Source: Anastatus disparis
Taxonomy: Eukaryota; Arthropoda; Insecta; Hymenoptera; Eupelmidae
Length of the DNA: 64,000 nucleotides
NCBI GenBank assembly: GCA_017163975.1
Contig: JAFFSR010000004.1
Location: 3,844,001-3,908,000 of the forward strand
Direction: 5' to 3'
Positions 10,646-46,914 of the stretch are shown piece after piece; positions within the stretch are counted from its first letter, which is position 1, and each line of letters opens with the position of its first letter. The notes under the pieces are model-generated. The model had not been told where the DNA came from, made no database searches, and saw nothing but the letters and a program-made list of their open reading frames with translations. Both the position numbers and the translations under genes were made by a program.

Positions 10646-11558
10646 TACCACGATAGCCGAATAATCATATTAAAGTTATGATTTTGAGGTTAGAGTGGTA
10701 TAAAAATATTTATTGATCTAAATAATTTGACTGTTATTGTTGGTTTGACTGTTGTCCTGAAGAGAGAAATACGCTCCTGAAGCATCAGTATTTATTAATA
10801 AAAAATTTGCAAAATATTTAGCTTATAAATTACTTTTTTGATTAAAGGAGACAAGAACTATTATTAACATTTTTGTAAAAGTAACTCCACCCCGTCAAAA
10901 ACGTTTAGCTAAAAAAATTAGCTAAAAATATAGCTAAAAATGCAGCTAAAAATACAGCTATATTTAGCTGGAATATAGCTATATTTATCTGGATTTTTTA
11001 GGTAAAAATCCAGTTATTTTTTAGGTAAAAATCCAGTTAATATTTTGAGTCTCTTGTAACAGCGGAAAATATAACTGTATTTTTAGCTGTATTTTTAGCT
11101 GTATTTTTAACTATATTTTTAGCTAATTTTTTGAGCTAATTGTTTTTGATGAGGCGAACAATAGCTGATAATATAGCTAAATTTTCAGCTATATTTTTAG
11201 CTGTATTTTTAGCTTAAATTATTTTATAATTTCACGGAATAATAACTCGTTAGTCATTTTCCTGTAAAAGAAAGTTCCAAAAATGAGGTAAACCTCGTAG
11301 TGTCAGCTCTCCGAAGATCGAAGAGCTTCTACATTTTGGCACAAAGTATCTTGCTCTTTTATACCTATGGCCTCAAAATTTCTTAATGGAATCGTAAAAT
11401 TTAGAGATCCGCCACCTAGCGACGTGAAGTGAACTTACCTGTCTTTAATTATTGATTAATGCTACGTCGCAAGGTGGCGTTTCTCTAAATTTTACGATTC
11501 CATCGACAAATTGTGAGGACACAGGTATAAAAGAGCAAGATACTTTGTGCCAAAACGT

Positions 11559-11834
11559 GTTCACTAACTGACTTTAAATCACTAACTGACTTTAAACAGT
11601 CTATTTCGTGTTTCGCAATTTGCGCGAGTGCTATACAGTCCCCGCTGTATGAGCCACCGTTGTCTCTCAATTTTCTTCTTCTTAAGGTTCATAACAATTT
11701 TGGTTGGTAACCTACGGGGAGGCGGTTTTAGTCGGTAGGCACCTGCGGGTGAATCCGACACTACCCCTACGGGGGTGTCTTTTGAAGATTTCCCCTCCTC
11801 GACCCTTCAAAAAAAAAAAAAAAAAAAAAAAAAA
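11559..11834 (+). mobile_element. short retroposon with poly(A) tail and 12-bp target duplication
   Basis: Flanked by perfect copies of GTGCCAAAACGT at 11547-11558 and 11835-11846, ending in a run of more than 20 A. The body is GC-richer than its surroundings and has a stem-forming 3' part (CTACGGGGAGG / CCCCTACGGGGG). It looks like a SINE or a 5'-truncated LINE tail; its parent is not identified. Confidence 0.8.
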
Positions 11835-12121
11835 GTGCCAAAACGTAGAAGCTCTTCGATCTTCGGAGAGCTGACACTAAGAGGTTCATCTCATTTTTGG
11901 AACTTTCTTTTACAGGAAAATAACTAACGAGTTATTATTCCGTGAAATTATAAAATAATTTAAGCTAAAAATACAGCTAAAAATATAACTGAAAATTTAG
12001 CTATATTATCAGCTATTGTTATCTTCGTCGAAAACGATTAGCTCAAAAAATTAGCTAAAAATACAGTTAAAAATACAGCTAAAAATACAGCTGAAAATAC
12101 AGTTGTATTTTTCGCTGTTAC

Positions 12122-12453
12122 AAGAGACTCAAAATATTAACTGGATTTTTACCTAAAAAATAACTGGATTTTTACCTAAAAAATCCAGATAAATATAGCT
12201 ATATTCCAGCTTAATATAGCTGTATTTTTAGCTGTATTTTTAGCTATATTTTTAGCTAATTTTTTTAGCTAAACGTTTTTGACGGGGAAGAGACTCAAAA
12301 TATTAACTGGATTTTTACCTAAAAAATAACTGGATTTTTACCTAAAAAATCCAGATAAATATAGCTATATTCCAGCTTAATATAGCTGTATTTTTAGCTG
12401 TATTTTTAGCTATATTTTTAGCTAATTTTTTTAGCTAAACGTTTTTGACGGGG
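12122..12453. repeat. 166-bp tandem duplication of a foldback arm end
   Basis: 12122-12287 and 12288-12453 are almost identical and both end in GTTTTTGACGGGG, so the right end of the foldback element exists twice. Confidence 0.8.
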
Positions 12454-32217: not shown

Positions 32218-33398
32218 GCACAAGTGTCATAAATCCGCCGCATTACATGAGTACTCTTAAAAATCAATAATTAACGAAAACTATGCACTCCACGAATGAT
32301 AATTCGTAAAATAAAAATGAAAATTGTAAAAGAGCAAATACTAGGCATTCCGTGAATGATGAATCGAGAAGGGAAAGCAAAAACTATAAATAAAAAAAAT
32401 TTGAACATTTCATGAATGATAAATCAAAAGAGAAAAATTTTAAAACTGTAATTTCAAATATTTACTTAAATCGTATAATAATGATAATACAATAATAATA
32501 CCTCTTCGTTTCATATATTACACTGGTATTAACTTTAGTTTTACTCTTATCTCACATTCTTATTATAGTTGTTTAATTTAAAAAATGCAAACTGTAAACT
32601 TACCTACTTCGGCCTACTCTCTGCTATACCGGTCGGTATAGTAGAGCGTATGCATGCCCTTGACTGTTAATTATTACCCCTGTTACTTTTAACCCGGGTC
32701 TCCTCTATTTTCATAGTTTCAAAACTAACAAAAAAATTCAATGGAGCAAGCCATATGCAAATTTTCAAAAATAAATTCGAAAGTATATTGTTGAGAATTT
32801 ATAATTTTATTCATAGATGAAAAAATATTTTTACGATTCTAAATATTGCAAACGTAATGAATTAAAATTATCGATTTTAGTAAATAATTAATGGTTTTAT
32901 TGATCATTGGAATTCAACACAATTTTTTTGCACAGTAAATATATTCTCACAATAGTTACATTCCAATTTAACAAAGAGAATGTAAGAAATTTCTCCTGAA
33001 TTCAGTAAAATTTACATAAACAGATATATTTGAAAAAAATACTATCAACTAATTTTATTTTGTTTTTACGTACCTAATAGTTATAAACCCTAGTCTTTAT
33101 ATAAAGAAAGATTTAATTCTATAGTATTCCTTGATAAAAACTTGAAAGAGCACATTAAACTAGAATAAAAATAAAGGGTTCATTTTGTAACGGCTCATAT
33201 TGATTTTGGGTATAATTATTAAATTAAACACAAATATGTCATAAGAATGACTATATTATTTAAAAGATAGAATAAATTTTAGTTATAAGAAATTTAAATC
33301 ACATTAAAAGTATAAGTAGGACTTCATAGTTACCTACTGAGGTCGATAAGATAACTCAAATGTATATATATAGATATAGTAAAATGATTATAGAAATA

Positions 33399-33718
33399 GA
33401 ATGTTCTATTTCTTTTAATAAAAAGTATTATCAATATTTAATGGTTAATAATAAAATGTAACTTTCTAAAATAATTGTGTATATATAAATAGAACATTCA
33501 ATTTATATAATATGTATGAAACTGATTACTCTGTTTAAAGTTTAAAGATATTAATTAAAATATAAAAGATTAACTTTTTCAATTAATAAATAATAAAATT
33601 AACTATAAAAAATAGTTATTTGAAATGTAAAGGAAATAGAATGTTTCTTTTACTAATACATTTATCTTAATTAAATGTTTCTTTTGTAAATATCTAAAAT
33701 AAATGTTATGGAACATTC
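33399..33718 (+). promoter_or_regulatory. HSE-like inverted GAAnnTTC pairs in LTR U3
   Basis: GAATGTTC at 33399-33406, GAACATTC at 33492-33499 and 33711-33718, each embedded in AGAAATAGAA-like context. The pattern matches the inverted pentamers bound by heat-shock factor; function is untested. The 3' LTR repeats them at +11419. Confidence 0.35.
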
Positions 33719-33779
33719 TATTTCCTAAAATATAATTCTTCAATAAGAAATAGAACCTCATAGAAGGTTTAAGAAATAA

Positions 33780-33787
33780 TATAAAAG
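33780..33787 (+). promoter_or_regulatory. TATA-box candidate of the LTR
   Basis: TATAAAAG, the best TATA match in the first half of the LTR, followed about 35 bp later by a TCATT initiator-like sequence. Confidence 0.45.
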
Positions 33788-34069
33788 AGCGTGAACTCAA
33801 GCAAGCTCTCTCATTATCTTTTAGATGTTCGACCATGTAACATCTAACATGGATACTATATTCATTCAATCTTATACTGTCAGAAGTATAAGATTTAAGC
33901 ATTCTGTCTTAAAATACTAAGTAACTTTAGAATCTTTGTAATATATATATTTTCTTAATTTTTTAATAAAAAGATTAAGTATTTCAAATTTAAATGAGAC
34001 TGTGTTTAAAAAGTTATTGATAAAAGTATAACTCATCTCATCTCATTAATCATTTTTCATATAAATACT

Positions 34070-34135
34070 AAACAAATTAATTATCGCACATTGAAGAGTA
34101 TTGTACTTGGATATGTCGTCGATAATAATTTGTTT
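34070..34135 (+). ncRNA. LTR hairpin H1
   Basis: Outer stem AAACAAATTA / TAATTTGTTT, conserved inner stem TTATCG / CGATAA, short variable stem ACAT / ATGT, apical AGAGTATTGTACT. First of four homologous hairpins. Whether it works as RNA or DNA is not known. Confidence 0.6.
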
Positions 34136-34153
34136 ATTCATTTTGCATTAAAT

Positions 34154-34219
34154 AGAAGTGTTATTTATCGCACATCTAAGAGTATTGCACTCAAAGATGT
34201 CGTCGATTTAAACACTTCT
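34154..34219 (+). ncRNA. LTR hairpin H2
   Basis: Outer stem AGAAGTGTT / AACACTTCT; conserved TTATCGC and CGTCGAT (inner pair weakened here); variable stem ACATCT / AGATGT; apical AGAGTATTGCACT. Confidence 0.6.
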
Positions 34220-34235
34220 CTACATATCTCATATA

Positions 34236-34303
34236 ATAAAAAAGTTGATTATCGCACTCTTTAGAGTATTGCACTCAACGGAGTCGTCGATAATAACTTT
34301 TAT
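34236..34303 (+). ncRNA. LTR hairpin H3
   Basis: Outer stem ATAAAAAAGTT / AACTTTTAT; inner stem TTATCG (one base offset) / CGATAA; variable stem ACTC / GAGT; apical AGAGTATTGCACT. Confidence 0.6.
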
Positions 34304-34328
34304 CATTCTACCCTCTCCTCCACACGTA

Positions 34329-34400
34329 AAGAAAATTATAAATTATCGCATCTCCAAGAGTATTGCACTGGAGGAGATCGTCGATAAACATAATTTTCTT
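34329..34400 (+). ncRNA. LTR hairpin H4
   Basis: Outer stem AAGAAAATTAT / ATAATTTTCTT; inner stem TTATCG / CGATAA; variable stem ATCTCC / GGAGAT; apical AGAGTATTGCACT. The best-paired copy. Confidence 0.62.
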
Positions 34401-34520
34401 ATACAATATTGTTGTATGCACCTTGTATATGCATGGAATTAATTAAAATAATGAAGTAAATTTAAATTCGGTAATTAAAATATTACCTGGCGACCGTGAA
34501 TAAAGTCGGGAACGCTTCAA

Positions 34521-34538
34521 CTGGCGACCGTGACAGGA
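34521..34538 (+). other. primer-binding site of the LTR element
   Basis: TGGCGACCGTGAC begins two bases after the LTR end; TGG is complementary to a tRNA CCA end. The same TGGCGACCGTGA also lies inside the LTR end (about 34490). Confidence 0.6.
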
Positions 34539-34845
34539 CATGCATTGAAGGTCATACAACAATAAATCGAGAATCTAGTATAAAACACTAGATGCTACCT
34601 CTGTATAACGGGGGGCTCTTTGAGAGCACTGATTATGCACGTGTGGAGACAGAGGAGAGGTTTGATGACTTTAACGTAGTCAAAACCAAAAAAGAGATGA
34701 GAAATAATAATAAAAAAAAAATTTCAATAAATTATTATAAAAAATATTTATTTAATTATAAATAGTTTCATAAAAGCTAATGCATTTATAGTATTGTACT
34801 AAGGCGGTATTATAATACCCTAATACGTGTAGTGCCTGATAAGCA

Positions 34846-34906
34846 ACGTTAGCTTGATGGCACAGCTCTTGCTTTACACGCGGAGGGCGGCGGTTCGAAT
34901 CCACCT
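34846..34906 (+). repeat. tRNA-like sequence serving as LINE target
   Basis: A-box-like TAGCTTGATGG, anticodon-arm-like TTGCTTTACACGCGG and box B GGTTCGAATCC, resembling a degenerate tRNA-Val head. It continues after the LINE at 40473. Confidence 0.55.
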
Positions 34907-35144: not shown

Positions 35145-36758
35145 ATGGCCGACGCAAGTAAAACCGATGGTGAAACTCATAATTTAGAAAAAATAATAAA
35201 CACTAATAGTGGTGAAATGTATAGTGCTAATTCTTCCCACGTGCAACAAAAAAATCATAATTATCTTAATTACAATTTTGAGCGCAGCGCCTCAGCTACC
35301 TATAGCAATCCTAAAGATAATGGAACAAGTGATCCGGAATTTATTAACAGAATGCTCATACACGCTCGAAAAGAGGCACATCGCTATAAAAGCCCAATTG
35401 TGCCAAACCTGGCACAAAAAAGATCGTTATCAACGTCCTCTAAGGAAGATGAAGGTTTACACAATAATGATGATGGCCATTGGATTACGCCAAAAAATGT
35501 CATAAAAAGACAACAAACAGCTCCACCTGAAAACATAGAAAATAGCAACATGTTCTCTCCCCTGCACAACGTGGATGCCGGCGACATGGACACAACAACT
35601 GAGCTTCAGCCAGAAAGTTATCCTTCTACAAGCCAAGCAACAACAAAGAGCTCTACGCCTATAGCAGCAAACAACCATTCAGCAACCATAGGTAACTCGC
35701 AGCAGTTCCAAGAAACACACAAAAATGCTAGCTCGCGCGATCGCCCACCCCCTATTCACGCGTGTTATACTAAACTAAAATCTTTAATTGAATGTCTAAC
35801 AAAATCTTTCAAACGTATAGAGTTTACAATTAAAAGCGTCAATCAACAAACACAAACCATATTTACCAATGACACAGCCATATTCGAACAAGTCAAAACT
35901 TGCTTAACTGACAATAAAATAAAGTTCTATACCTACACCCCAAAATCACAAAAAATAAAAAATTTTGTCCTAAAAGGTATTCACGGAGATTTTTCGGAAA
36001 AAGAGATTTCGGACGAATTAAACGAATTAAAAATTGAAAACGTTAACATCATTAAAGTATCTAAAATTAAATTAAGCAAAAAAAACCTAATTTACCATAT
36101 TTCTTAGTTCAAATAAGAAATGACAGCGACGCAAACGCTCTCACTAAAATTAAATCAATTGCATATCAAAAGGTTAAATGGGAACCGCTAAAAAAGCGTG
36201 AAATCCACCAGTGTAAAACTGTCAACGACTCGGTCACGCTAGCTCAAATTGTAAACTAGACTATCGTTGCGTAAAATGCAAAACCCAACACGAACCGGGC
36301 AAATGCTCCATAGATACACAAACAGCGTCAAAAGATACCCTATACTGCGTCAATTGCGAACAAACCGGACACCCGGCATCATACCGCGGCTGTCCTCTTT
36401 TCAAAATGGCCAAAACATGGGCCATCACTGTAAACGAACAGAAAAAAGAAAAACCAATGCCCGAGTTGCAGACATAAATAAACGCGTTGAAACGGCGGCT
36501 TCCAAACCATATTCTCAAAATATCCCTCCCTCCTCTTTCCTCTACTCTAAAGCAGTTGCCTCAAGCAAACCCACCCCCATAACTCAAAACGCACACTACA
36601 ACAGCGAAAACACCAGTATGGCTGATATGCTAAACGAATTTAAAAATCAAATCGCACACACTATTGAATTACAATTTAAAAACCTTTACGAAAAAATAGC
36701 AAATAATACATCAAGAATAGACGATTTATACGGATTATTTCTAAATCAAAATGAATAA
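35145..36758 (+). pseudogene. LINE ORF1 (nucleic-acid-binding, PRE_C2HC and CCHC fingers), frameshifted
   Basis: ATG at 35145 in good context (CAAAATGGC). The first open stretch runs to 36107 and ends in a PRE_C2HC-like domain (FYTYTPKSQK, NFVLKGIHGDFS). The frame shifts at an A8 run (36078-36085), again near 36215, where three CCHC-type fingers follow in the new frame (CQRLGHASSNC, CVKCKTQHEPGKC, CVNCEQTGHPASYRGC, about 36220-36400), and again near 36440-36476. The last piece ends at 36758, overlapping the ORF2 ATG by 8 bp. ORF1 protein normally coats LINE RNA; three frameshifts make this copy inactive unless rescued. Confidence 0.8.
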
Positions 36759-39700
36759 TAAAAATAACTGCATACTCTCAACCCAAGATAATCAACATAA
36801 AATTTTAAATACTATAAAATTGGCATCAATAAATGTGAATTCCATTGTTTCTCTAAACAAAAGATATGATCTCTTCAATTTTGCCAGTAGAAACGAACTA
36901 GATATAATACTAATATGTGAAACTAAATTGAACAAAAGACACAAAATACAGTTCTCTAACTATGAGTTCATTCGTACAGATAGAAACTATAACTCAAAAG
37001 GCGGTGGTACGGCGATTCTAATAAAGAACACTATCCCTTTCGAAATCGTTTATTTCCCCTCTTCAAACGCAAATACAATATTAGAGTATACTATAATTCT
37101 CATAAAAATTAATAATAAAAACCTTTTCATTGTATCCTGCTACGCTAATAATCAATCGAAAAAAAAATTCATTCATGAACTCGAATATTTATGCAAAAAT
37201 CTTAACCTAATCAACGAAAACAACTACTACATCTTCGCAGGCGACTTTAACGCCAGGCATACGGCTTGGGGTGACGCTATAAACTCACGCAAAGGTACCA
37301 TGCTGAATAATTGGCTTGAGAACGAAAGTATAGCATATAGAACTAAAATTATTCCTCCCTCCAGCTCAACCTATACTAGTAGCAACTCGTATTTAGACCT
37401 ATGCATTACCGATAACCGCATCAAAATATCCAACCTTAAAAATAATAAAATTCAAATAACAGACTATAATAGCGACCACTGCGCCCTTCTTTTTACAATA
37501 GACATTTCAACAATACACACAATCACATTAATTAACCCACATACAAAATATAGATTTATGTATAAAAAGACCAAATGGACAAAATTTAAAAAAAATCTAT
37601 CTCAAACTTACACAACTGTTATACCGCATAATACTAATCTATCCGTCACCGAAATTGATGCATATCTAAAAGAACTCGAAGAAACAATCCAAAATTCCAT
37701 CGAAAATATAGTACCCAAATACAAACCTACAGATAATGTTCTTAACTATGTAAATACTAAAATAAAAAAATTACACAAATTTAAATCCTTCTTAATAACA
37801 ACCATTAATCAAGCACATCGATCTGCCTACCCCACCACTTCCTATAATACATCCTTTCTAAAAGATCTAATAAATAAAATAAACAATAGCCTTAAAAATG
37901 AATACAAAACAACATATAATAAATACTGGAATGCTCAAATAGCATCAATAAACTACAAAGACCCTTCTACTTTTTTCCCGAAAATCAACACATATTTCAG
38001 ACCCAAAGGACAATTAAAAATAGACAACCTATCTCTCAATAACAATGAAATTAACCTAATAACGCGTAGTAACTGTAACACAGATTCACTTAAAACGGAA
38101 AACAACAATTACTTAATCGAAAAGCCTGTCGACATACTTAACGTAATGGGTGCTTTTTACGAAAGCATTAACGCCCCTACCTTCTATAATTTAAATACAC
38201 CCTTGAAAAAAATAGTCGACAATAAAACCGAAAAACTTAAAAATTCATTTATAAATAAAAATCATTCACCTTCATTAAAATTCTCAGAGACGAATCCGGC
38301 CACTGCCCCAGACAACTTATCAAGCCCACTCATATTTTTTAACGTCGCCGAAACGCAAAATTTATTTAATAACCTGCCGAATAAATGCTCCACCGGTCTA
38401 GATAACATACCTCCTATAACACTCAAACACTTACCGCTCTCGATCATCAAATCATATACCATTATTTTCAACAATTGCATAAATAATAAATACTTCCCCC
38501 CTCAATGGAAAAGATCAAAAATTCTGCCGATACTGAAAAAAGGCAAACCAGCGAATAACCCATCCAGCTACCGGCCGATCAGTCTAACGCCCGCAATCAG
38601 CAAAGTCTACGAATCCCAAATTAACTCCTCAATTCTCAAGCATGTTAATAACAACAACATTATACCCGATAACCAATTCGGCTTCAAACACCAGCACTCA
38701 GCTGTCCACGCCATACACAAAGTCCTCGACGAAATATGCACACACCTAAACAACGGTGATATCGTAGGAGCCTGCTTAATTGATTTACAACGCGCTTTTG
38801 ACTCCGTTTGGATCAACGGCCTACTATACCTTTTATATACTTTAAAATTCCCTACTGACTTAATCCACTTAATTTGGCACATGACCTTAAACAGATCATT
38901 CATAACTTGGAACGGCGAACATATGTCCAGCCAAATATTCAATATAATAGAGGGTCTTATGCAGGGCACCTTAAACTCTCCCCTCCTTTTCAATATATAC
39001 ACACATAAAGTGCCTACCTTATTTAACCTCAACCGCGTCAATAATATTTATTCTACAGCTTTTGCAGACGATTATTTAATCTTAGTAGCCGATCCTAACC
39101 CCGAAACCCTCCGTGATAAGCTTGAAACGTTAGTAAACAATACATGTAAACACTATTTACAATGGAACTTGCTCCCTAATCCCTCAAAATTTGAAACAAT
39201 CCTATTTCACAGGCCTTTTAATACCATGAGTGTAAATAAGCGCAATGCCATAAAAAACTTCTCAATACATGTACATACAAATAACACTACGCATAAAGTG
39301 CAACATAAAAAGAGTGTAAGATATTTAGGCGTTGTTCTAGACAGTCTACTTCGACTAAACATACACGTCACCACTCAACTAAGCAAAGCCAAAAATGCAT
39401 TTAAAATGCATTCCAGACTTTTTTATAATAAATCACTATCTAGTGAATGTAAAGTTATATGCTATCTCCTACTCATCCGCCCCATAATGACATACGCGGC
39501 TCCAATATGGTGGAACATAAGTGCCTCCCTTATGGAGAAACTAAGAAAATTCGAACGTCAATGCTTAAGAGCTGCCCTGCATATCTATAGACGAGATGAC
39601 AATAAATATTTCATTAAAAACAAAGATATTTACAACAAGTCCAATATCCCCAGAATAGATAACTTCATTATCAAAATCACCCGCGACTACTGCGCTAACT

Positions 39701-40050
39701 TGAAAAATATTAAAAACAAATATCTTAAATCTTACAGTGACACAAAAGAATACGCATATTTAGCAAATATCACCACAGAGTACATCCTACCTCATACATT
39801 TATATATCTAGATAGCATAAATAAAATTCAAAATAATGAAAACATCCCCATACTTTTCCACCTTCCCAGACATCAAGGAAATAAAAAGATCCCACCAAAC
39901 TCCCGCATCCTGAAGTATTCCACTGCAATTTCCGATAGAGACTTACTAGACAAATACAAGTTTAATAAAAAATATTGGTGGACTTCCAATAACGTCAAAA
40001 AATTAGATGAAGTGCGTAGAAGACGAAAAAGGAAACTTATCACGAATTAA
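36751..40050 (+). CDS. LINE ORF2: APE endonuclease and reverse transcriptase, 1099 aa
   Basis: Performs target-primed reverse transcription: nicks DNA and copies the LINE RNA. N-terminal endonuclease (residues about 25-255) shows INVNS, ETKLN, GDFNARHTAWG and SDHCALLF. RT follows with SSYRPISLTPAISKVYE, LIDLQRAFDSVW, GLMQGTLNSPLLFNIY and the catalytic FADD at about residues 771-774. A C-terminal region with scattered Cys/His follows. Uninterrupted, full length for the family; its ATG overlaps the end of ORF1 (ATGAATAA), so translation is probably coupled. The frame is intact although ORF1 is broken, suggesting young age. Confidence 0.9.
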   Translation: MNNKNNCILSTQDNQHKILNTIKLASINVNSIVSLNKRYDLFNFASRNELDIILICETKLNKRHKIQFSNYEFIRTDRNYNSKGGGTAILIKNTIPFEIVYFPSSNANTILEYTIILIKINNKNLFIVSCYANNQSKKKFIHELEYLCKNLNLINENNYYIFAGDFNARHTAWGDAINSRKGTMLNNWLENESIAYRTKIIPPSSSTYTSSNSYLDLCITDNRIKISNLKNNKIQITDYNSDHCALLFTIDISTIHTITLINPHTKYRFMYKKTKWTKFKKNLSQTYTTVIPHNTNLSVTEIDAYLKELEETIQNSIENIVPKYKPTDNVLNYVNTKIKKLHKFKSFLITTINQAHRSAYPTTSYNTSFLKDLINKINNSLKNEYKTTYNKYWNAQIASINYKDPSTFFPKINTYFRPKGQLKIDNLSLNNNEINLITRSNCNTDSLKTENNNYLIEKPVDILNVMGAFYESINAPTFYNLNTPLKKIVDNKTEKLKNSFINKNHSPSLKFSETNPATAPDNLSSPLIFFNVAETQNLFNNLPNKCSTGLDNIPPITLKHLPLSIIKSYTIIFNNCINNKYFPPQWKRSKILPILKKGKPANNPSSYRPISLTPAISKVYESQINSSILKHVNNNNIIPDNQFGFKHQHSAVHAIHKVLDEICTHLNNGDIVGACLIDLQRAFDSVWINGLLYLLYTLKFPTDLIHLIWHMTLNRSFITWNGEHMSSQIFNIIEGLMQGTLNSPLLFNIYTHKVPTLFNLNRVNNIYSTAFADDYLILVADPNPETLRDKLETLVNNTCKHYLQWNLLPNPSKFETILFHRPFNTMSVNKRNAIKNFSIHVHTNNTTHKVQHKKSVRYLGVVLDSLLRLNIHVTTQLSKAKNAFKMHSRLFYNKSLSSECKVICYLLLIRPIMTYAAPIWWNISASLMEKLRKFERQCLRAALHIYRRDDNKYFIKNKDIYNKSNIPRIDNFIIKITRDYCANLKNIKNKYLKSYSDTKEYAYLANITTEYILPHTFIYLDSINKIQNNENIPILFHLPRHQGNKKIPPNSRILKYSTAISDRDLLDKYKFNKKYWWTSNNVKKLDEVRRRRKRKLITN

Positions 40051-40907
40051 TAATAAATAAATAATAATCCGACCAGTTATCCTATGTACAACAATTTATA
40101 TTTATATTACCATTGTTTTAGCACCGTCATATGTAAATATACCATAAAACCTCTCTTATCCTATGTAAATATTAACTTTCTTTTTTTAGCTCTCACCGAT
40201 AATCTATGCGGTTTTTTTACTGTAAAATTTTTTTTTTACCGCTTTAAAATCATATTAAAACTAGGTTTAGCGACGAATTTGTCAACACCTCAACTACTCA
40301 ATATTTCTTTCTGTAATAAATAATGTATATTGTTCATATGCGAGAGTTTTCAAACCATGTATATGCGTTACTTATAATATAAGGCTTTTGTTTGTAATGT
40401 TATTTGCGCCTACCATGTATCCAACTATGTATCCTTCTCTAAGCAAATAAACATCTTTTTCAAAAAAAAAAAGGTTCGAATCCACCTCAGAGCATAAAAA
40501 ATTTTAAAGATTTTTTTTTCTGCATTTTATATAATTAAATGATTAAATTAAATTAATAAAATTTATTTGCAAAATTAAAATTGCAATAAATTATTAATTT
40601 AATTAAATATGAATATTTAAAAAATTTGAATTTTAAGAGATGAAAATAAAGAGTAAAGCAAGAAAGATTCAGATGTAAGTGTTAAACACATACACATACA
40701 TATACATATGTAGATGTATTAGCTTGTTGAAATAGATATAAAGGTTGGTTTCCACTTAAGAAATTTCCATTGAGTTTAAATCAAGTTTAAACACTTTGAA
40801 AGTGAATTCAAAGTAAATATAATTCAATACAAAGCTAAGTATTGAATTATAAAAAAGGATTTCTTCTCATTTTTCTTATTTTTTGATTTTATAATTAAAT
40901 TTAAAAA

Positions 40908-42263
40908 ATGTCGAAAAGAAGATCAATCCTAAAGTTACATGAGAAGACATCTGAAGAGCTTCTCAATGAAATAGATCAGCTCTCAGATGCAAGTTCTCCT
41001 GAAGCTATAAGGAAATCTGGCTCATGGAGAAGAGCAGTAGCAGAGGAAGTAAAATGCCTTGATGAGAATCAAGATAGCCTAGAAGCTAGGATAATAAGCA
41101 TCGAAGACGATGTACAAAATCAGAATACTTTGCAAAATAATATGCAAATAAACCAAGATTCTCTGAAGGAATCATTAACTCTTTTGGAAGGGTTAATAAA
41201 TAAAAAATTAGAAGAAGCCAAAGCTGAATGGCAACAAGAGATTCAAACTCTAAAAAATGAAATAGAGAGTTTAAAAGCAGAAAACAAGACTCTAAATGAT
41301 CTTGTTAAAGAGAACGAAGATATTATGTCAAATCTAAGACATCAAGAGATTGCTGAATTAGACGTGGCAATAAGAAATAATGAGGATGCCATGAGAAGTC
41401 TGCAAGAACAAGTAGAGAATTCAACAATGAATCAGACTGTCAACAGCAATATCGTAGCATCAGGTGATGCAACTAAAAAATTAAATTTGAAAATTCCAAA
41501 GTTTAAGGGGACTTCGGAAGAAAGGCCCATCAAGTTTCTAAATGACCTAAAAAGATACATTGAAGTCACGAAACTTGATGAGAAGGAAATCAGATATGTA
41601 TTTTCTCAAAGTTTAGAGGGAATGGCCCAGAGCTGGTTCAATCTAAACGAAAAAGAAATCCTTTCAATAGATGATTTTGAAAAAGAATTTAAGTTGCAGT
41701 TCTGGAATGATAACACCCAGAGGGTCATTAAACGAAAAATCGAGTTTGGGAAATATCATTCTAAGAAAAATGCAACTAGGTTAGCCTATGCAATGGACTT
41801 ATTCAATTCAGCACAAGAACTCGATGAACATCGGGATGATTGTGAAATCATCAATCAATTAAGTGGTCATTTTGAAAGAGAGATTAGAAGTGCAATTCGT
41901 ATACAACGGATTAAAGATAAAACTGCATTCTTTGCACTGTTATCTGAATTTGATTTTGATGATCAAGATCAAAAGGATGAGCAAGATTCTATGGAAAAGA
42001 ATAAAAGCCATCCGAATAAAAATCCAAATTATTATAATAAAGATTATAATAAGAATGGATATAACCAAAAACCTTATAATGCACATGAGGTAAATGAAAT
42101 AAGAGTGCAACAAGGGAATAAACCAAAAGGTTTAAACCTAAAGCAAAAATCATCAAGTCAACAAGACTTCATTAATGAAGCTTGTCGAAGATATGAAGAA
42201 GAGGTAGATGTTACGAGCTTATTTCAAGAAGCAGGTACATCGAAATCGGGAAACGGACAGTAG
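40908..42263 (+). CDS. Gag of the LTR retrotransposon, 451 aa
   Basis: Structural capsid precursor. Residues about 45-175 form a long charged coiled coil; about 195-335 match the retrotransposon gag fold (IPKFKGTSEERPIKFLNDL, AQSWFN, FEKEFKLQF, TRLAYAMDLFNSA). The C-terminus is Asn/Lys/Tyr-rich with no CCHC zinc knuckle, so RNA binding may rely on the basic tail. Intact. The pol frame is open before its stop in the -1 frame, so Gag-Pol would be made by -1 frameshifting. Confidence 0.8.
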   Translation: MSKRRSILKLHEKTSEELLNEIDQLSDASSPEAIRKSGSWRRAVAEEVKCLDENQDSLEARIISIEDDVQNQNTLQNNMQINQDSLKESLTLLEGLINKKLEEAKAEWQQEIQTLKNEIESLKAENKTLNDLVKENEDIMSNLRHQEIAELDVAIRNNEDAMRSLQEQVENSTMNQTVNSNIVASGDATKKLNLKIPKFKGTSEERPIKFLNDLKRYIEVTKLDEKEIRYVFSQSLEGMAQSWFNLNEKEILSIDDFEKEFKLQFWNDNTQRVIKRKIEFGKYHSKKNATRLAYAMDLFNSAQELDEHRDDCEIINQLSGHFEREIRSAIRIQRIKDKTAFFALLSEFDFDDQDQKDEQDSMEKNKSHPNKNPNYYNKDYNKNGYNQKPYNAHEVNEIRVQQGNKPKGLNLKQKSSSQQDFINEACRRYEEEVDVTSLFQEAGTSKSGNGQ

Positions 42264-42264
42264 T

Positions 42265-43729
42265 TGCATTTTGTAACTCGGATCCAAGAAAAAGCAAAAT
42301 AAATCAACAGAATGCAACTGATAAAAAAGAAATTTTCGAGATTAACACTATATTTAGTGATCCTCGTAGTGAACTCTTATATGATATTGAACCTGACGGT
42401 GTCAACATCATAAAAAAGAAATGTCCTCAGATACCATTAGAGGTGGAAGGCATCAAAATTCAAGCATTAATAGATTCAGGCAGTGAGGTAACCTGTATTT
42501 CGGAAGAATTCTACAAGAATAATTCTCATATTTTTAATGATCGTCCAACTTTACCTATAGCAGGAAAAGTTATTAAAGGTGCAACAGGTTTAAAATCAAC
42601 AAAAATAACTAAACAAGTTATGTTGACTGTTAAGGTGGCTAGTATCGAATTCAATGCCATTTTTATCGTAGTACCAAAGCTAGTGAGAGAATGCATAATT
42701 GGCTACGATGTACAAAAAGGCTTAAAAATGATTTTAGATACTGTACATGAAAAAATATGTATCAGTAATCAAAATAAAAAGGAAATTATTCCTTATATTG
42801 ATATCATTCTTGAACAGAATGAATATCAAAGTTTGAGTATTGAGTACAGTGAAAGTGTCTCAAAACCAAACAATAAAAATTTAAATGATCCTAAGTACAA
42901 TTTAATGTATGAAGAGATCGAACAAAAAATACTGCCAAATGAAAACCTTACAGATGAACAAAAACAAAAGTTAATTATGTTAATATTCTATCATCGTGGA
43001 ATATTTGATAAAAACCAAGTTTGCCAGATGTTTATGAACATGAATTGCAGTTCAAGGATGATAAACAATTTTCTATTCCTATTAATTATAAGGAAAAAGT
43101 AGACAAGGAAATCCAAAAAATGCTTGAATTAAATATTATTAGAAGATCAACGAGTTCTTACATCAACCCATTGGTTATTGTAATTAATAAAGATGGCTCC
43201 GTTCGATTATGTCTAGATGCTAGAATACTTAATGAAAAGCTCATTAAAGTTTCTGAAACACCAGCTGGAATCGAGGAAATATTTCAAAGATGCCAAGACA
43301 TAAAATATATGTCAAACTTTCATTTAATAAGTGGTTTTTGGCAAATTGCTTTACCTAAAAACAGAAAAAAAATACACTGCTTTCATGGTAAATAATAAAG
43401 TATATGAGTTCAATGTGGTGCCCTTCGGTACGTCTACAAGTAGTGCAGCTCTTATAAAGGGTTTGAACTTAGCTATTGGTGATTTACACCATTCAGTTAT
43501 AGCATTTTTCGATAATTTATTGTGCATATCACATAGTTTTGAACAACACTTGGAGAATTTAGAAAGATTGTTTAAAAGATTAGAAAAGCACAATTTAAGA
43601 TTAAATTTTACAAAATCTAATTTTGTATTAAAGGAAGTACAACTTTCAAGTCATGTACTATCCTTAGAGGGACCAAGACCCCGAATAAAGAAGCTTTTCT
43701 TAGCATATAGAAAAGTAAAGAAGAAATAA
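42265..43729 (+). pseudogene. broken pol: protease and partial reverse transcriptase
   Basis: Protease motif IDSGSEVTCIS (Asp codon about 42473) starts the region. RT sequence follows (VDKEIQKMLELNIIRRSTS, INPLVIVINKDGS, VVPFGTSTSSA) but in two other frames: one frameshift near 43018 and one at an A-run near 43370. The catalytic YxDD is replaced by FFDN (43508-43516), removing an essential Asp. The frame ends at 43729 shortly after RT; RNase H and integrase are missing. Clearly non-functional. Confidence 0.8.
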
Positions 43730-44604: not shown

Positions 44605-46741
44605 TGTAACGGCTCATATTGATTTTGGGTATAATTATTAAATTAAACACAAATATGTCATAAGAATGACTATATTATTTAAAAGATAGAATAAATTTTA
44701 GTTATAAGAAATTTAAATCACATTAAAAGTATAAGTAGGACTTCATAGTTACCTACTGAGGTCGATAAGATAACTCAAATGTATATATATAGATATAGTA
44801 AAATGATTATAGAAATAGAATGTTCTATTTCTTTTAATAAAAAGTATTATCAATATTTAATGGTTAATAATAAAATGTAACTTTCTAAAATAATTGTGTA
44901 TATATAAATAGAACATTCAATTTATATAATATGTATGAAACTGATTACTCTGTTTAAAGTTTAAAGATATTAATTAAAATATAAAAGATTAACTTTTTCA
45001 ATTAATAAATAATAAAATTAACTATAAAAAATAGTTATTTGAAATGTAAAGGAAATAGAATGTTTCTTTTACTAATACATTTATCTTAATTAAATGTTTC
45101 TTTTGTAAATATCTAAAATAAATGTTATGGAACATTCTATTTCCTAAAATATAATTCTTCAATAAGAAATAGAACCTCATAGAAGGTTTAAGAAATAATA
45201 TAAAAGAGCGTGAACTCAAGCAAGCTCTCTCATTATCTTTTAGATGTTCGACCATGTAACATCTAACATGGATACTATATTCATTCAATCTTATACTGTC
45301 AGAAGTATAAGATTTAAGCATTCTGTCTTAAAATACTAAGTAACTTTAGAATCTTTGTAATATATATATTTTTTCTCATCCCCTGGCGAAAAGTACGTCA
45401 AAAGACGTCTACTTTCTAAGAGAGAAGTTAAGCATTATCCACGGCGGCTCGGCGCACTAGCGATGCGCAATCGTGTTGACGCTCTGTTTTTCACGGCAGT
45501 TAAGAATAGAGAGGGCTACGTCTATCCTTCTCTGTTCGCCGGCTTTAGACATTGACTCTCTCCCTCTCTCTTTCTTTTTCATACAGAATAGAGAGGGTTG
45601 CGTCTATCCTTCTCTGTCCACCGGTTTTAAGAATTGACTCTCTTCCTCTCTCTTTCTTTCTCTTATATGTACTATAAAGGTGGCTGCGAATGGAGGGGGC
45701 TATGGCTAGCCTTCTTTGCCGGTTACAACAAGCAGTATCTTTTTCTTTATCTTTATTATATAGCAATTTTAAATATTTTATTATTAAAACCTAATTTGTT
45801 TTATTTTGTGAATTATAAATTGCAGTGTGTTATAAAGTGTGTAAATTATAAAATGTGTGTGAAATATTGATGGTTTATTTTAATGATTTATCATCAGTGG
45901 GAGAGGGGCAGAGAAGGATAGAGCATACTCGGTCGAAAGCAGCAGGCGATTCATCGCGGTATTTTTATTTTAATGATTTATCATCAAAAACGAATTATCA
46001 CAAAGGGTAAGTTGGACGTACTTTTCGCCGGAGACAAGAAAAAATCGTATATTTATCTCGGGAGAAAAGTTGACCAGCAATTGTTCGCGTATTTGCCCCC
46101 TCGCTGCGCTCGGGGGCAATCTATACGCGAACATTTAATGGTCAACTTTTCACCCTCGGTGAATAATATACTATTCTTAATTTTTTAATAAAAAGATTAA
46201 GTATTTCAAATTTAAATGAGACTGTGTTTAAAAAGTTATTGATAAAAGTATAACTCATCTCATCTCATTAATCATTTTTCATATAAATACTAAACAAATT
46301 AATTATCGCACATTGAAGAGTATTGTACTTGGATATGTCGTCGATAATAATTTGTTTATTCATTTTGCATTAAATAGAAGTGTTATTTATCGCACATCTA
46401 AGAGTATTGCACTCAAAGATGTCGTCGATTTAAACACTTCTCTACATATCTCATATAATAAAAAAGTTGATTATCGCACTCTTTAGAGTATTGCACTCAA
46501 CGGAGTCGTCGATAATAACTTTTATCATTCTACCCTCTCCTCCACACGTAAAGAAAATTATAAATTATCGCATCTCCAAGAGTATTGCACTGGAGGAGAT
46601 CGTCGATAAACATAATTTTCTTATACAATATTGTTGTATGCACCTTGTATATGCATGGAATTAATTAAAATAATGAAGTAAATTTAAATTCGGTAATTAA
46701 AATATTACCTGGCGACCGTGAATAAAGTCGGGAACGCTTCA
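44605..46741 (+). repeat. 3' LTR with 803-bp insertion
   Basis: 44605-45372 and 46176-46741 match the 5' LTR. The LTR end lies 173 bp upstream of the ionotropic receptor ATG, so it could act as promoter or insulator. The four hairpins recur at 46292-46622. Confidence 0.88.
45373..46175. mobile_element. insertion within the 3' LTR, includes hairpin MITE A5
   Basis: Absent from the 5' LTR. Junction analysis gives a TT duplication. Inside: inverted CTGGCGAAAAGTACGTC (45382) / GACGTACTTTTCGCCGG (46015), an 82-bp tandem repeat of AGAATAGAGAGGG plus pyrimidine tract (from 45503), and a family-A hairpin at 46039-46177. No ORF. Confidence 0.75.
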
Positions 46742-46914
46742 ATTTAAAATATCAATAGTATAGTCAAGATATTATTTTTTATTATAATTCATTTAAAATA
46801 ATATTAACTTTCTTTTGATTTTGGCAGATTTTCTCCAGTAAAAAAGAGTGATAAAATAAGTTTTCTAGTGAATATTTCTATTAAAAGATTGCTAATAGTT
46901 GGTTTTAGTTAAAA

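Follow-up and report, generated by a model that had tools for sequence, protein, structure and literature searches.

A retroelement in the genome of Anastatus disparis carries four tandem hairpins within its long terminal repeat (LTR), and the locus raises the question of whether these form a selected structure, on which nucleic acid they act and what would read them. The window analysed here is the whole stretch of 64,000 nucleotides (contig JAFFSR010000004.1, positions 3,844,001 to 3,908,000), and all coordinates below without a contig label refer to it. The element that holds the array is composed of the following parts.

33186..34519, + strand: 5' LTR with TG...CA ends (self-comparison; boundaries read by eye)
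33780-33787, + strand: putative TATA box (by eye)
33965-33970, + strand: putative AATAAA signal (by eye)
34522..34539, + strand: tRNA-Arg-like primer-binding site (from the sequence)
40908..42263, + strand: gag-like open reading frame of 451 amino acids, without a CCHC zinc knuckle
42443..43102, + strand: aspartyl protease region
43331..43723, + strand: reverse transcriptase fragment, frames broken
44605..46742, + strand: 3' LTR with an insert of about 789 bases (self-comparison)

Based on the order of these parts and on the primer-binding site, which we take to be of tRNA-Arg type, we call the host of the array a Ty3/gypsy-like LTR element, an assignment that draws partly on general knowledge of such elements. 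The two LTRs are 99.5-100% identical in self-comparison, the element contains an aspartyl protease together with a fragment of a reverse transcriptase, and the location of the array inside an LTR is supported. The Gag protein has only three cysteines and the CCHC motif is absent. If the putative TATA and AATAAA set the transcript start and the R/U5 limits, the array, which sits in the second half of the LTR, would belong to U5. The foreign insert (45373-46161) is confined to the 3' LTR, where the array lies downstream of it. The leader of the element is split by a non-LTR element with endonuclease and reverse transcriptase (open reading frame 36751-40050), and a 15-base direct repeat, GGTTCGAATCCACCT, occurs on either side of it at 34892-34906 and 40473-40487; read by eye, this looks like a target-site duplication within tRNA-like (SINE-like) leader sequence. 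Positions 34521-34540, around the primer-binding site, are identical in 10 of 11 aligned sequences. The start of this site (TGGCGACCGTGA) is duplicated at the LTR end, at 34488-34499 as against 34522-34533 for the real site, that is, 34 bases upstream, and a similar copy lies 37-38 bases upstream in five loci of a second lineage described below.

The four hairpin units and the copy of the array were located as follows.

34066..34138, + strand: hairpin unit 1
34150..34222, + strand: hairpin unit 2
34234..34306, + strand: hairpin unit 3
34328..34400, + strand: hairpin unit 4
46283-46626, + strand: copy of the array in the 3' LTR

The preliminary description of the units was confirmed. The four tandem copies have start-to-start distances of 84, 84 and 94, each carries the inner frame TTATCGC...CGTCGAT unchanged and has a core of exactly 43 nucleotides, and the repetition of the array in the 3' LTR was confirmed. 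The frame pattern was found eight times in the window, four times per LTR, where 0.01 would be expected by chance. The apical sequence described as common to the units, AGAGTATTGCACT, is exact in three of them; unit 1 reads AGAGTATTGTACT, and its T is found in only two of 44 distinct arrays (that of the window and that of L010). Each unit consists of an outer stem, a frame that bulges asymmetrically, with a single C facing C-G-U, an upper stem and an apical stem-loop with the core A-G-U-A-N-N-G-C-A-(U)-C-U. Folding of the units was considerably more stable than that of dinucleotide shuffles (z = -4.7, -6.3, -4.7 and -5.8 for units 1-4), and a global fold of the leader retains all four hairpins with mean pair probabilities of 0.85-0.92.

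The stems were said to differ between units yet stay complementary, and the counts agree: 9 of 26 pairs are changed on both sides and 93.3% of the pair cells among the four units are paired, a value reached by 0 of 500 shuffles, while structures slid along the units give only 33.7-51.0%. A cruder comparison of arms is less clean, in that the left arm of unit 3 matches the right arm of unit 1 better than its own and, for the other arms, with a foreign partner tying with or coming close to the own partner. Since the arms are AT-rich, an arm does not always score highest with its own partner; scores as high as those of own arms occur among random LTR arms at frequencies of 0.0025 to 0.037. The statement that no named RNA family fits was upheld by a search of Rfam 15, which gave no match over the array, either at the gathering score or, when the LTR was scanned sensitively, at E<=1. 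A microRNA precursor cluster was considered and rejected, as it would need conserved arms and a variable loop, the opposite of what these hairpins show.

In order to follow the array beyond the window, the core motif was searched in the 939 Mb host assembly. This gave 1462 exact matches, a number of matches and not of arrays, as a single array can hold four or more of them; the reversed control gave 0. A covariance model recovered four units in each of 63 loci (252 hits), as expected of loci picked by array similarity, and these include the two LTRs of the window as well as one place counted twice. Among 14 further places picked for variant cores, one (L078, G000:C15:505930-506530) holds six units, of which units 1-2 are apparently duplicated, and five hold fewer than four (L074, L079, L083, L085 and L086); the number of units thus varies in the family. 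The array pattern had 0 matches in the viral_contigs set, and no relatives of the gag or reverse transcriptase pieces were found there. Nine single bacterial or archaeal hits of the pattern in genome_contigs were put down to chance, and the covariance model found nothing there up to E=10.

The many copies allow selected change to be separated from decay. As inserted copies of a retroelement mutate freely, changes private to one copy served as a near-neutral yardstick, and changes common to several copies, which mostly arose while the lineage was active, were used as the signal of selection. The sample comprised 52 distinct arrays, after five partial arrays out of 57 had been dropped, with the six-unit array outside the alignment. 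Pairing is kept by 9 of 12 pair variants found in at least three arrays, as against 16 of 68 private ones (p=0.001); variants found in exactly two arrays, counted on neither side of this comparison, keep pairing in 4 of 13 cases and break it in 9. Two of the three shared variants that break a pair are at or beside a helix end. Sites with a shared minor allele number 28/136 outside the units, 9/92 in the outer stem, 5/56 in the upper stem, 2/64 in the frame and 1/52 in the apical motif, and private alleles per site range from 0.22 (frame) to 0.36 across all site classes. Double changes kept pairing in five cases and broke it in four, compared with 0-2 kept in slid versions of the structure. At the pair 34073/34132, 27 of 44 arrays have C-G and 17 have G-C, one-sided intermediates being absent, and four more of the 52 arrays have U-A. 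The pair 34155/34218 occurs as A-U, G-U and G-C and is broken in 3 of 44 arrays. The preliminary description had named two findings that would speak against a selected structure, missing covariation in other copies and stems disrupted in the majority of related LTRs. Neither was observed: across the 52 arrays, 96% of the pair cells are paired.

A second lineage was reached through gag and not through the hairpins. With a distant Gag relative (P0001) as query, 99 of 2634 candidates were scored, and the DNA upstream of 28 of these 99 gag copies, picked from the gag listing, was examined, with an extra stretch added for two of them; some of the 28 may be elements already known through their arrays. 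At least one unit was present in 21 of the 28 loci, of which 11 are like the window (type A; L103 with one unit only) and 10 belong to a different type (type B). Six of the seven loci without units show no clear LTR of the family in the stretch examined. The seventh (L095, G000:C135:3043086-3043986) has LTR ends, a leader and an open gag frame, yet the array is absent, and the array may accordingly be dispensable or replaceable. A distant gag relative (L104, G000:C1:104323-105223) has a different LTR, in which a long hairpin without the frame was read by eye, and a different sequence resembling a primer-binding site (TGGCGCCCGAAC).

Type B arrays have three units about 80 bases apart (six loci and L111), of which the type A model reports two. 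These units have the frame and the C versus C-G-U bulge of type A on different stems that are still complementary, and the loop (U)AUUGC(A) is replaced by UAAAGCAU, common to the units of the type and closed by UGG/CCA in unit 1 and by UAG/CUA in units 2 and 3. In L093 and L114, the loop of the first unit is altered at a single base. The type B core pattern gave 334 matches in the genome (159+175) and 0 in the control. The last units of both types have the start of the upper stem in common (CATCTC...GAGATCG), which in our reading suggests that the two arrays are orthologous and that their loops changed together. For a joint count, 17 units were taken from the many more available, eight of type A (two arrays) and nine of type B (three loci), with apical columns omitted from the structure because the lineages differ there by one base. 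Of all cells, 84.1% were paired and 14 of 23 pairs were changed on both sides; double-change cells numbered 64 as against 22.9 in shuffles, and the covariation score was 0.430 as against 0.175 in shuffles, 0 of 500 being as high. Further pair types were not in excess in this count (28 as against 28.6 in shuffles). The counts within the array, over the 52 arrays and across the two lineages all support the claim that the structure is under selection.

Pairing between U5 and the leader was examined as well. Of six U5 segments compared with the part of the leader that lies 3' of the primer-binding site, two can pair with it, and in each case 1 of 1000 shuffles reached the same stability. The predicted helices are formed by the following strands.

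34312..34327, + strand: helix 1, U5 strand, between units 3 and 4
34639..34660, + strand: helix 1, leader strand
34407..34418, + strand: helix 2, U5 strand
34553..34564, + strand: helix 2, leader strand, just 3' of the primer-binding site

Predicted energies of the two helices are -29.3 and -22.0 kcal/mol. A leader lies downstream in 10 of 62 loci, giving 11 sequences together with the window, and in these, with gaps counted as variation, the helix strands are variable at 6 of 58 sites and the remainder of the leader at 43 of 150. Helix 2 has one case of compensation, from U-A to C-G (L061), and one change in U5 without a change in the partner (L066). Helix 1 has changes at four sites in 4 of the 11 sequences, none of them compensated. 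A type B helix can form in the same place, from TGCTGTATGGATTATG in U5 (8 of 10 loci) opposite CATAATCATACAGC (4 of 4 leaders). As for the two exceptions, L114 lacks the search word and L100 has an altered U5 strand without a matching change in the leader. In the one type B locus tested, helix 2 surpassed shuffles only by a modest margin, since 40 of 1000 paired equally well. These results point to a potential for pairing between U5 and the leader, and a function in the genomic RNA is favoured by the location of the partner strand, which is not part of the LTR.

We propose, at about even chances, that the array is a selected RNA structure serving as a multivalent, sequence-specific protein-binding site in the U5 leader of the genomic RNA, with Gag as the first candidate ligand. 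Each unit would be one binding module, in which the outer stem and the short upper stem need only pair, the bulged frame is conserved and a small apical stem-loop would be read by its sequence. Stems that are free to vary while paired, together with a fixed frame and a fixed loop, form the pattern of a ligand-binding hairpin, and a succession of modules (three or four, and six in one copy) would provide avidity. One loop motif per lineage, differing between lineages on a constant frame, is most likely explained if the modules track a single trans-acting ligand, although a single loop per array could partly reflect duplication of units, as in the six-unit array. This ligand would most probably be the element's own Gag, selecting the genomic RNA for packaging, and next a host RNA-binding protein. 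As the Gag lacks CCHC, it would have to bind by means other than a zinc knuckle. A packaging signal would be expected to lie in the leader of the genomic RNA and to be conserved in structure; here the structure is conserved and the array precedes the primer-binding site, while its place in the transcript is predicted from the putative TATA and AATAAA only.

Action through a host protein, in nuclear export of unspliced RNA, translational control or localization, appears less probable to us but is the strongest competitor. Repeated sequence-specific modules on variable stems suit any RNA-binding protein, the 5' leader doubles as an mRNA leader, and the missing CCHC motif fits a ligand other than Gag; a concerted change of loop in two lineages of one genome is, however, easier with a ligand encoded by the element. 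Export would work like the constitutive transport element of MPMV, which depends on NXF1. An array acting as DNA, as an insulator or as transcription-factor sites and perhaps as cruciforms, is unlikely. TATCG occurs four times and CGATA three times in the array, compared with about 0.2 per 340 bases in the whole window, the spacings of 84, 84 and 94 are near whole helical turns, and neither the wobble nor the folding of the hairpins reveals the acting strand (G.U in 14 cells, A.C in 10; the + strand gives a better fold than the - strand in 8 of 17 units). CGATA-type sites and the Su(Hw) insulator of gypsy, an insect LTR element in which a motif is likewise repeated close to the 5' end, are precedents. 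The latter differs in being an array of DNA-binding sites, for which we know of no conserved secondary structure. In the present array the motifs are conserved but the stems keep pairing too, and binding sites alone need no complementarity in variable outer and upper stems; the pairing partner of U5 outside the LTR also speaks against a DNA-level role.

The preliminary description raised the possibility of kissing contacts through TGCA, and dimerization by such homotypic loop contacts is now weakened to a rather improbable reading; the protein-binding array that the description also offered is the one we favour. Three of the window's four units carry TGCA in their apical motif, and 42 of 44 arrays have the C completing it in the first unit. 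It is, however, partly tied up in the apical stem and restricted to lineage A, the type B loop UAAAGCAU having neither TGCA nor, by inspection, any self-complementary 4-mer. We consider it very improbable that the hairpins act in reverse transcription, in strong-stop complementary DNA or as pausing sites: U5, adjoining the primer-binding site, would be the first part to be copied, and both strands fold, but pausing alone needs no invariant loop. Returning to the proposed protein-binding site, we suggest more tentatively that the array represents a multivalent RNA receptor of a new class in retroelements, in which modules vary in copy number (3, 4 or 6) and the loop is switched in concert in all modules between lineages of one genome, recording a changed specificity of the element's own RNA-selecting protein.

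To our knowledge, little is known of RNA self-selection by animal Ty3/gypsy elements, notably those whose Gag lacks zinc knuckles. Cis-acting leader RNA is familiar from retroelements; the arrayed module and the lineage-wide switch of its loop are, as far as we know, new, and searches of the open-access literature listed no array of this kind as judged from titles and the beginnings of abstracts. The closest principle is the multivalent packaging signal of alphaviruses, which consists of 4-6 stem-loops with a conserved GGG in nsP1 (PMC8233893). This signal differs in lying in the coding region of an RNA virus and in its motif, and an asymmetric bulge frame such as that of the array is not described in the excerpt of that account (PMC8233893). 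Retroviral packaging signals such as that of MMTV are, as is proposed for the array, leader structures near the primer-binding site, and are read by Gag; the excerpt on MMTV describes a purine loop and the primer-binding site, in contrast to repeated modules inside U5 with Gag as a candidate only (PMC8096270). The Ty1 and Ty3 RNAs likewise belong to LTR retrotransposons and have leader structure tied to packaging and dimerization, with a pseudoknot and palindromes described for Ty1 in the excerpted source in place of a repeated hairpin array (PMC4974528). Two natural loop types on one frame in one genome make the specificity of an RNA-protein contact directly testable, and the large family of copies, through its private and shared changes, supplies built-in near-neutral controls for proving RNA structure. 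The array in addition belongs to a very abundant mobile element of the host genome.

Some further structures were observed in the window. Extra hairpins, for example CTTATACT/AGTATAAG, occur between the putative TATA box and AATAAA (33812-33898). Far upstream of the element, positions 11669-11804 match the Rfam family R2_retro_el with 48.9 bits (gathering score 38), and inverted and direct repeats are found close to this match, at 10890-12453.
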